A stretch of 55,717 bases of DNA from an uncultured Pelagibacteraceae bacterium. Lineage in GTDB: Bacteria > Pseudomonadota > Alphaproteobacteria > Pelagibacterales > Pelagibacteraceae. Every line of letters begins with the position of its first letter. Within the stretch, counting starts at the first letter, position 1. The translations under genes and the position numbers were made by a program. Below, piece by piece: positions 2,163 through 4,916 of this stretch. The stretch covers positions 1-55,717 of the forward strand of contig CACOXL010000003.1 of NCBI GenBank assembly GCA_902631135.1, in the 5' to 3' direction. A model generated the notes under the pieces. It was not told the origin of the DNA and made no database searches. It saw only the letters and a list, made by a program, of their open reading frames with translations.

Positions 2163-2815
2163 TGAATGAGGTTCAGAGATCAAAAATAGTATTAAAAAAA
2201 TTAAATAAAATATATCCAAAGATAAATGTACCTTTAAAAAGCCGGAATGTTTTCACACTTCTAATTTCAGTTCTTTTATCTGCTCAATGTACAGATGTGA
2301 ACGTAAATAATGTCACTAAAAATATATATCACAAATATTATAAACCAGTTCATTTTATAAAACTTGGTAGAAAAAAAATTGAGAAATTGATTAAAAAAAT
2401 TGGTATCTTTAGAATAAAAGCAAAAAGCATTTATAATCTCTCAAAGATATTAGTTAATGAGCATAAAGGACAAGTTCCTAAAACTTTTGAGGAACTTGAA
2501 AAATTACCTGGTGTAGGCCACAAAACAGCTAGTGTTGTTATGTCTCAAGGCTTTGGATATCCTGCATTTCCAATAGACACTCATATTCATAGATTAGCTC
2601 AAAGATGGGGACTAACAAATGGCAAAGATGTAATACAAACTGAAAAGGATCTTAAAAGACTCTTTCCAAAAAAAAATTGGAATAAACTTCATCTTCAAAT
2701 TATTTACTATGGTAGAGAATATTGTAAATCAAGAGACTGTTATGGAATAACTTGTAAAATTTGTACCAGTTGTTATCCTAATAGAAAAAAACCCATTAAA
2801 ACTAAAAAAGCTTAA
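2162..2815 (+). CDS. nth: Endonuclease III
   Basis: HhH LPGVGHKTA motif, C-terminal Cys cluster; ATG 2162 overlaps dapB stop (TAATG). Confidence 0.95.
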   Translation: MNEVQRSKIVLKKLNKIYPKINVPLKSRNVFTLLISVLLSAQCTDVNVNNVTKNIYHKYYKPVHFIKLGRKKIEKLIKKIGIFRIKAKSIYNLSKILVNEHKGQVPKTFEELEKLPGVGHKTASVVMSQGFGYPAFPIDTHIHRLAQRWGLTNGKDVIQTEKDLKRLFPKKNWNKLHLQIIYYGREYCKSRDCYGITCKICTSCYPNRKKPIKTKKA

Positions 2816-3744
2816 TGAAAATTTTAGGGATAGGTAATGCAATTATAGATGTAATTTGTAAAGTCGATGATAATTATTTATCTCAAAATAAGCTCGAAAA
2901 AGGTACAATGAAATTATTTTTTGATGAAATTGAGTTTAAGAAAATAATATCGAATCTTAAAATTGATAAAACTGTTTCTGGTGGTTCAGTTGCAAATTCT
3001 ATAGTGGGTTTGTCTCAATTAGGTAATTCAGTTGGTTTTATTGGTAAAATCTCAGATGATAACTTTGGTGCAAAATATGAAGATGGATTAAAAAAAGAAA
3101 ATGTAAATTTTTTTTATTCAAAAAAAAAAGAAAACTTACCTACAGGTATATGTTTAATTTTAATAACACCAGACTCTGAAAGGACAATGTGTACATATTT
3201 AGGAATATCAGCAAAGATAAATAAAAACGACCTTAACATTGAGTCAATAAGAAAAAGTGAAATAATTTTTCTAGAGGGATATTTATGGGATGAAGGTGAT
3301 GCTAAAGGAGCTTTTGATGAAGCAATAATTCAATCAAATAAAGTAGCAATGTCATTATCTGATAAATTTTGTGTTGATAGGCATAAACCTCATTTTTTAG
3401 AGTTAGTAAAAAATAAACTTGATATTATTTTTGCTAATGAAAATGAAATATTATCCTTAATAAATACAACAAATTTTAAAGAGGTTATTTCGTTTGCAAA
3501 AAAAATTAATAAACATCTAATTATCACGAGAGGAGAAAAAGGTGCTATTTCAGTTCATAATCATGAAGTTTATGAAATTGGATCAAAGGATAATCTCAAA
3601 ATAGTAGATCTGACAGGAGCTGGAGATTTATTTGCAGCTGGGTATCTACATGGTTTCATCAATAATTTAGACATAAAAGAGTGCTTGGCCAAAGGAACTG
3701 ATATGTCTTCAAAAATAATCCAACAAATTGGAGCTAGACTTTAA
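2815..3744 (+). CDS. PfkB-family sugar kinase, adenosine kinase-like
   Basis: SGGSVANSI and DLTGAGDLFAAGYLHG PfkB signatures. Confidence 0.88.
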   Translation: MKILGIGNAIIDVICKVDDNYLSQNKLEKGTMKLFFDEIEFKKIISNLKIDKTVSGGSVANSIVGLSQLGNSVGFIGKISDDNFGAKYEDGLKKENVNFFYSKKKENLPTGICLILITPDSERTMCTYLGISAKINKNDLNIESIRKSEIIFLEGYLWDEGDAKGAFDEAIIQSNKVAMSLSDKFCVDRHKPHFLELVKNKLDIIFANENEILSLINTTNFKEVISFAKKINKHLIITRGEKGAISVHNHEVYEIGSKDNLKIVDLTGAGDLFAAGYLHGFINNLDIKECLAKGTDMSSKIIQQIGARL

Positions 3745-3850
3745 CTCTTTTTTTTCTTTTAAAACTACCTTTACCTTTTTTTGGTTTTACAACTCTAGGC
3801 TTATATTTATTAGAGAAAAGATCCTTTGCAAATGAATTTTTTTTTTTCAA
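3734..3850 (-). CDS. ArfA-like alternative ribosome-rescue factor (38 aa)
   Basis: Unlisted ORF, TTG start at 3850: (M)KKKNSFAKDLFSNKYKPRVVKPKKGKGSFKRKKRVKV*; matches the ArfA core LFRxRVxKxKKGKGSYxRK. TTGA overlap with upstream gene stop. Confidence 0.75.
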   Translation of the reverse strand: MKKKNSFAKDLFSNKYKPRVVKPKKGKGSFKRKKRVKV

Positions 3851-4410
3851 ATTATAAAATATCCCTCCTTTGAACTTATTATAAATTGATCATCTTTAAA
3901 TTTTTCTTTGATTTTTTTTCTTAATCTGTGAATATGGGTTTCCACAGTATGTGTCTCTAGCAAAGATTTGTGATCCCAAACGTTTAATTGAAGTTCTTTA
4001 ATTTTTATAGGTTTTTTTGATTTATTTAAATAAACTATTGTATCAATTTCTTTTTCAGTCAATCTTAAAATGTCTTTCTTATTCGAAATAGTTCTAGAGT
4101 TAAGATCTATAAAGTATTTGCCAATAATTTGACTTGCTTGATCTTTAAAATTCAATTTCAAAAATTCAACATTTAATCTTTCAATTAATTGGATAAGTCT
4201 TATGGGCAAATTATCTAATATGAATTGATTTTCTATATTAGAAATTTTTTTTTGTGTTAAAAAAATATAATTTTGATTTTCATTATTCTTAATAAGATTT
4301 AGCTCATCTTTCTTAATATGGGAAATATTAAAATTTAAATTATCTTTTATTTCAGATAATATCTCATGAATAATTAAAGAATCATATATAATTAATTTTT
4401 GATTATCCAT
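3847..4410 (-). CDS. OmpR-type winged-helix DNA-binding protein with degenerate receiver-like N-terminus
   Basis: C-terminus LTEKEIDTIVYLNKSKKPIKIKELQLNVWDHKSLLETHTVETHIHRLRKKI..GYFII is a Trans_reg_C domain; likely start ATG 4410 (MDNQK). Confidence 0.8.
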   Translation of the reverse strand: MDNQKLIIYDSLIIHEILSEIKDNLNFNISHIKKDELNLIKNNENQNYIFLTQKKISNIENQFILDNLPIRLIQLIERLNVEFLKLNFKDQASQIIGKYFIDLNSRTISNKKDILRLTEKEIDTIVYLNKSKKPIKIKELQLNVWDHKSLLETHTVETHIHRLRKKIKEKFKDDQFIISSKEGYFII

Positions 4411-4421
4411 GTAAAGACAAT

Positions 4422-4916
4422 ATGTTAATTTACTTAAAAAATAAACATACTCTAAAGATAGACGATTTCTCATTTAAATGTGTAATTGGTAAAAATGGCA
4501 CGTCTATAAATAAGATTGAGGGTGATAAAAAAACTCCTAAAGGTACCTTTTGTATTGAAAATTTATATTATAGAAAGGACAGGGTAAAAAAAATACAAAC
4601 AAAATTAAAATCAATACCAATCTCTAAATTTATGGGCTGGTGTGATGATGTAAGCAATAAAAAATTATATAATAAGTTATTTAGAATAACAAAAAAAATT
4701 GGACACGAAAAACTTTTTAGAAAAGACAAAAAATATGATTTATTAATACCAATCAAATACAACTATCATAAAAGAATTAGTGGAAAAGGTAGTTGTATAT
4801 TCCTCCATCTTACAAATAATTACAAACCAACAGCAGGCTGCATAGCTTTAAATAAAAATGATTTTCTAATTATGTTAAAAATTATTAATAAAAAAACAAA
4901 AATAAAAATTAATTAA
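4422..4916 (+). CDS. L,D-transpeptidase (YkuD) family protein
   Basis: GDKKTPKGTF and IFLHLTNNYKPTAGCIAL catalytic Cys/His motif. Confidence 0.85.
   Translation: MLIYLKNKHTLKIDDFSFKCVIGKNGTSINKIEGDKKTPKGTFCIENLYYRKDRVKKIQTKLKSIPISKFMGWCDDVSNKKLYNKLFRITKKIGHEKLFRKDKKYDLLIPIKYNYHKRISGKGSCIFLHLTNNYKPTAGCIALNKNDFLIMLKIINKKTKIKIN

Follow-up and report, generated by a model that had tools for sequence, protein, structure and literature searches.

The window analysed here, a stretch of 55,717 nucleotides from an uncultured Pelagibacteraceae bacterium (GenBank assembly GCA_902631135.1, contig CACOXL010000003.1), carries on its minus strand (3734–3850) a frame, arfA, for a predicted 38-aa ribosome-rescue factor of the ArfA family. 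The frame runs from a TTG start to a TAG stop, and its product, read from 3850 to 3734, is LKKKNSFAKDLFSNKYKPRVVKPKKGKGSFKRKKRVKV; its assignment draws on translation, the Pfam family PF03889, an alignment of orthologues and pN/pS. On comparative sequence grounds, it is highly probable that the frame represents a genuine, vertically inherited Pelagibacteraceae arfA, the product of which would recruit RF2 and serve as a back-up to tmRNA-SmpB where ArfB is absent.

The frame sits between two genes with which it shares bases at both ends. Upstream, on the same strand, lies an ompR-like gene encoding 208 aa (3847–4473, minus strand; PF00486, 38.7 bits), in the product of which Pfam matches only the OmpR-type C-terminal DNA-binding domain and no receiver domain. 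Convergent with arfA is an adoK-like gene for a PfkB-family sugar/nucleoside kinase (2815–3744, plus strand; PF00294, 162 bits). The TTG start codon (3850–3848) is the sole ATG, GTG or TTG in the open frame upstream of the conserved core, and it overlaps the stop codon of the ompR-like gene (3849–3847) in a TTGA junction common to both (3847–3850, minus strand). At the other end, arfA and adoK overlap by 11 bp where they both stop (3734–3744), and the C-terminal VKV* of arfA falls within the segment common to the end of the kinase gene. An earlier note on this DNA had described a 38-codon, TTG-started ORF on the minus strand that overlaps the ompR-like stop and 11 bp of adoK; its frame, peptide and start are borne out by the sequence and its translation, and its two overlaps by the coordinates. 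The overlap of start and stop makes it probable that translation of arfA is coupled to that of the ompR-like gene. An end overlap is also present in E. coli, where arfA (L343:2932-3150) converges on mscL with 4 bp in common, paralleling the arfA/adoK arrangement.

The peptide clears the curated 25.5-bit cut-off of the Pfam ArfA profile (PF03889) with 28.1 bits (E 1.4e-6), which answers the HMM check that the earlier note had proposed; when the frame is instead taken from stop to stop, the score is 24.7 bits, slightly below that cut-off. In a control of the genome search with this profile, E. coli alone gave a match among 14 well-known genomes. The best and only matches to solved structures are chains of E. 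coli ArfA, weak ones obtained from a single sequence (E 0.04–0.1), PHROGs matches are weak and point to families of unknown function, and NCBIfam holds no model matching the host or phage versions of ArfA. The 38-aa peptide lacks a GGQ motif, and so lacks the hydrolase domain of ArfB (PF00472, about 140 aa, with its own GGQ). Two other small basic rescue proteins that depend on release factors, BrfA of Bacillus and ArfT of Francisella, have been described (PMC6881298), and BrfA is reported there to be distinct from ArfA in sequence, whereas the SAR11 peptide has the ArfA signature; it is by description that the two are set apart. The observation of a real ArfA-family frame is thus confirmed, and its reading as ArfA is supported by these profile and sequence comparisons.

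Alignment with E. coli ArfA (PF03889; YhdL, b4550) is gapless over the core, window residue n corresponding to E. coli residue n+9. The two proteins have a KKGKGS[FY]xRK core in common, in which K24, K25, G26, K27, G28, S29 and R32 align with E. coli K33, K34, G35, K36, G37, S38 and R41; the KPKKGKGS segment of the window protein (residues 22–29; 3764–3787, minus strand) is the tunnel-binding signature found at K31-S38 of E. coli ArfA. Register is kept in the N-terminal half as well, where N5, L11, the aromatic Y16 and R19 align with N14, L20, F25 and R28, and these residues place the RF2-contact region, as defined by this alignment and the published contact residues (PMC5378476), at NSFAKDLFSNKY (residues 5–16; 3803–3838, minus strand). 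The SAR11 peptide is about nine residues shorter at its N-terminus than E. coli ArfA, some of the N-terminal residues of which touch h44 and uS12. The last residue of the window protein aligns at E. coli Asn47, and E. coli ArfA cut at Asn47 works while shorter versions are inactive (Demo et al., PMC5378476). The description of the factor as a miniature one hence holds, the SAR11 protein ending where the functional core of E. coli ArfA ends. Lengths among SAR11 ArfA range from 34 to 42 residues, and a protein so near a natural minimal ArfA can be used to test which residues are needed for RF2 recruitment. Unbound ArfA is presumably disordered.

Conservation among relatives shows that the frame is maintained as protein. 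It is open in all 142 distinct orthologous cores, where differences per site reach 0.42 at codon position 3 but 0.17 at position 1 and 0.13 at position 2. Over 331 close pairs, pN/pS is 0.12; arfA is under purifying selection at the protein level. A short frame with a non-ATG start and an 11-bp overlap with adoK might be taken for a chance antisense frame at a gene-end overlap, or for DNA kept because of an RNA or antisense role, but the uninterrupted frame and the three-base periodicity of its changes already refute this reading. Moreover, no RNA-structure signal is seen over arfA at 152 loci (mean z +0.2), and the frame is cleanly gone from arfA-negative genomes that retain both adoK and the ompR-like gene, leaving such an explanation with virtually no probability. 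Among 26 aligned orthologues, KKGKGS (K24-S29) and R32 are invariant in all 26, as are N5 and L11, and Y16 is kept in at least 90%. The start site is also preserved, with ATG in 114, TTG in 28 and GTG in 10 of 152 orthologues at or near this position. In 102 of the 152, the assigned start lies in an NTGA sequence, although a frequent lysine codon following the start makes NTGA likely anyway; in the few loci inspected by eye, the window included, its TGA is the stop of the ompR-like gene. The earlier note had put forward, as a check, conservation of the KKGKGS core and the TTGA junction in related genomes. The core is conserved there, as are the gene order and the start site, and NTGA is present in 102 of 152 orthologues, in part as expected from the lysine codon.

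The window's genome is not peculiar in having this locus, which is typical of SAR11. Matches to arfA were found in 28 of 61 nearby genomes, all from the window's own genus, and, across the order, in 196 of 297 genomes at E <=0.001, representing 6 of 11 genera (113 of 297 score above the PF03889 cut-off). A separate collection yielded at least 415 places with arfA, and the 80 kept from these all bear Pelagibacteraceae, Pelagibacterales or Pelagibacter in their titles. The ompR-like gene, arfA and the convergent adoK occur in this order at 76 of these 80 loci, the other four showing one neighbour; counted singly, adoK is present at 79 and the ompR-like gene at 77. The same order recurs in four further genera (g7, g8, g9 and g10), and in another, g5, the distance between arfA and adoK is about 1.5 kb in one genome and larger in the other. 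In a class-wide sample of 386 genomes, PF03889 matches outside the Pelagibacteraceae were found in 7 genomes only. Within Pelagibacter, neither profile detects arfA in complete genomes, among them G062, G063, G066 and G067, that lack it, and in the arfA-negative genomes examined the ompR-like gene and adoK stand end to end, a few to about 45 bases apart. Since some complete genomes are without the gene, arfA is dispensable in part of SAR11. The occurrence of one locus in several genera, together with its clean absence inside a single genus, points to an ancestral SAR11 gene with later losses. The ompR-like protein, which has no recognisable receiver domain, stays beside adoK even in genomes that lack arfA.

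The very lysine-rich composition of the peptide, and the existence of complete SAR11 genomes without it, could also fit a conserved basic peptide that has lost its role in rescue, such as a ribosome- or nucleic-acid-binding remnant with an ArfA-like tail. A bare basic peptide, however, would not need the conservation seen in both halves of the protein (N5, K9, L11 and Y16 in one, KKGKGS and R32 in the other) nor a pN/pS of 0.12, and this reading is very improbable.

In the preferred reading of the peptide as a functional ArfA, the choice of partner deserves separate attention. In E. coli ArfA, a patch formed by Leu19, Leu24 and Phe25 contacts Trp319 of RF2 (PMC5378476). Two of these three residues differ in SAR11, where the Leu19 and Leu24 positions are mostly D/E/N and K/R, respectively, and Phe25 is kept as Tyr or Phe. 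Furthermore, the position of Ala18, which inactivates E. coli ArfA when changed to Thr (PMC5378476), is Lys in SAR11 ArfA. With the contact patch and the Ala18 position both changed, RF2 specificity could differ, and the protein might be an ArfA homologue that works with both RF1 and RF2, in the manner of ArfT, or contacts RF2 differently; ArfT itself shows that the partner range of such factors can vary (PMC6881298). Against a changed partner choice, the equivalents of L20 and N14 are invariant, the Phe25 position remains aromatic, and the switch-loop Trp of RF2 (IGWG.QIRSYVL), the residue contacted by ArfA (PMC5378476), is present in every SAR11 RF2 examined, whether arfA is present or not. 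We therefore think a different partner choice unlikely; alphaproteobacterial and phage copies have much of the altered pattern in common, suggesting that the RF2 contact is probably built somewhat differently.

The remainder of the rescue system in SAR11 is consistent with such a role. An alpha-type tmRNA is found in 35 of 37 SAR11 genomes. PF00472, which covers ArfB as well as release factors, matches two proteins in 35 of the 37 and one in the other two; the open frames concerned are nearly all 345–374 aa long, with one of 310, and no ArfB-sized PF00472 protein occurs in the 37 genomes. These sizes indicate that RF1 and RF2 are present and ArfB is absent. The window's own assembly, about 55% complete, shows one release factor, and its lack of a detected tmRNA and RF2 is taken as missing data. 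In a survey of 15,259 genomes, the 2,376 from Alphaproteobacteria included none with arfA and 2,022 with arfB (PMC11633108). Set against this survey, SAR11 look like the reverse of their class, and appear to be without the ArfB that most Alphaproteobacteria carry (PMC11633108). The suggestion that arfA is a tmRNA back-up fits this gene content, because SAR11 have an alpha-type tmRNA and RF2 and no ArfB.

In the mechanism that we propose, arfA would be translated downstream of the ompR-like gene, probably coupled to it through the NTGA overlap, to give a basic peptide. In the ArfA family, it is the basic C-terminal half that occupies the empty mRNA tunnel, and the N-terminal half grips RF2 by its switch loop and opens it for release (PMC5378476). 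Likewise, when a ribosome has stalled on a non-stop message, the lysine- and glycine-rich C-terminal half of SAR11 ArfA would sit in the vacant mRNA tunnel. The N-terminal half would bring in RF2 and open it, allowing RF2 to release the nascent chain without a stop codon, and the protein would thereby back up tmRNA-SmpB in cells that lack ArfB. The control of the gene presumably differs from that of its E. coli counterpart. E. coli ArfA has a regulatory hydrophobic C-terminal tail, and its gene an RNase III hairpin or terminator that gives rise to a non-stop message, whereas the SAR11 protein is without the tail and the 152 orthologous loci give no signal of a hairpin or terminator that would produce a non-stop arfA message (mean z +0.2, as above). 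The hairpin and the unstable full-length tail belong to the way E. coli arfA is regulated and lie outside the family profile, and the lack of both makes E. coli-style control by tmRNA unlikely in SAR11. The SAR11 gene further differs from E. coli arfA in its setting, behind an ompR-like gene with which it overlaps at NTGA.

Few cells in the ocean are as abundant as those of SAR11. Two published accounts restrict ArfA to the beta- and gammaproteobacteria (PMC8012679, PMC6881298), and the presence in SAR11, where ArfB is missing, of a conserved arfA with constant neighbours changes this picture of the range of ArfA. What is new is an ArfA-family member in a lineage reported to be without ArfA, overlooked in the sense of the published accounts consulted. 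A pelagiphage arfA, gp30 of HTVC027P, has already been published (PMC12753301), and phages that carry the gene often meet hosts with a copy of their own. IMG/VR provided at least 192 candidate stretches encoding ArfA relatives, of which 80 loci were kept. The phage proteins (HTVC027P gp30 and those from IMG/VR) have the same core as the host protein, with up to 79% identity over 33 residues, and tails and N-termini that are far more varied than those of SAR11 host copies. The host flanks ompR, adoK, nth and ykuD were found in none of the 80 kept viral loci, ruling out host contamination as the source of these matches. At one viral locus (L110), the surrounding genes are phage-like, as judged by eye, and on a 74-kb viral contig arfA (L115:5001-5096) lies directly 3' of what looks, again by eye, like an AAA+ clamp-loader gene, in surroundings that resemble a replication module. 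A tblastn search of annotated phages with the peptide gave no match, the low-complexity filter probably masking the lysine-rich query.

Peptides with an ArfA-like N-terminal half and other tails are also found in and around SAR11. In 21 Pelagibacter genomes of the 297, a separate locus encodes a 45-aa short-tail peptide of the type KKKNPMAKLLSSPMLRNKIVKNKKKIYNRKK (L316-L320, L344-L363), and five such peptides have about 97% identity. It is absent from all 196 arfA-positive genomes (Fisher p 3e-11, with genomes treated as independent), although the genomes with the short-tail peptide may form one clade, so that the exclusion may reflect a single replacement event. Three nearly complete, single-contig genomes (G063, G066 and G067) have neither arfA, a clear short-tail peptide nor ArfB, and may depend on tmRNA by itself or on some unrecognised factor. 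Sporadically, other Alphaproteobacteria encode KKxYxRK peptides, one of which matches the Pfam family of unknown function DUF7230 (PF23876) at 42.8 bits. Peptides of DUF7230 (L307 and others) and of the short-tail type have the NPxAKxLRTxxYRxxVV N-terminal register of SAR11 and phage ArfA, but either lack the GKG of the tunnel core (KKxYxRK) or have a different tail, and they fall below the ArfA profile cut-off or are unmatched by it. We propose, tentatively, that short-tail and KKxYxRK peptides are ArfA-like factors with other tunnel tails, and DUF7230 may be a divergent ArfA-like family. A broader reading, possible though somewhat doubtful, is that SAR11 swapped ArfB for a minimal ArfA within a wider set of rescue peptides with exchangeable tails that includes the DUF7230 and KKxYxRK types; if this were true, short-tail and DUF7230 peptides would be further, mostly unrecognised rescue factors that recruit release factors. 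The ArfA profile has no match in the sister SAR11 family (f2), 8 of 9 genomes of which encode a peptide that combines the N-terminal motif with a tail of a third kind (L314, L315 and L321-L326), for instance KSNPIARQLRTDKFRPKKVANKKKLHEKKRIKIKL. In that family, L236 and L237 were weakly matched by the alignment of SAR11 ArfA; these were rejected, as the proteins keep the N-terminal motif and have a different tail. At two of the f2 loci (L315, L325), the peptide is encoded between genes that, named by eye, resemble those for a short-chain dehydrogenase and a nitroreductase.
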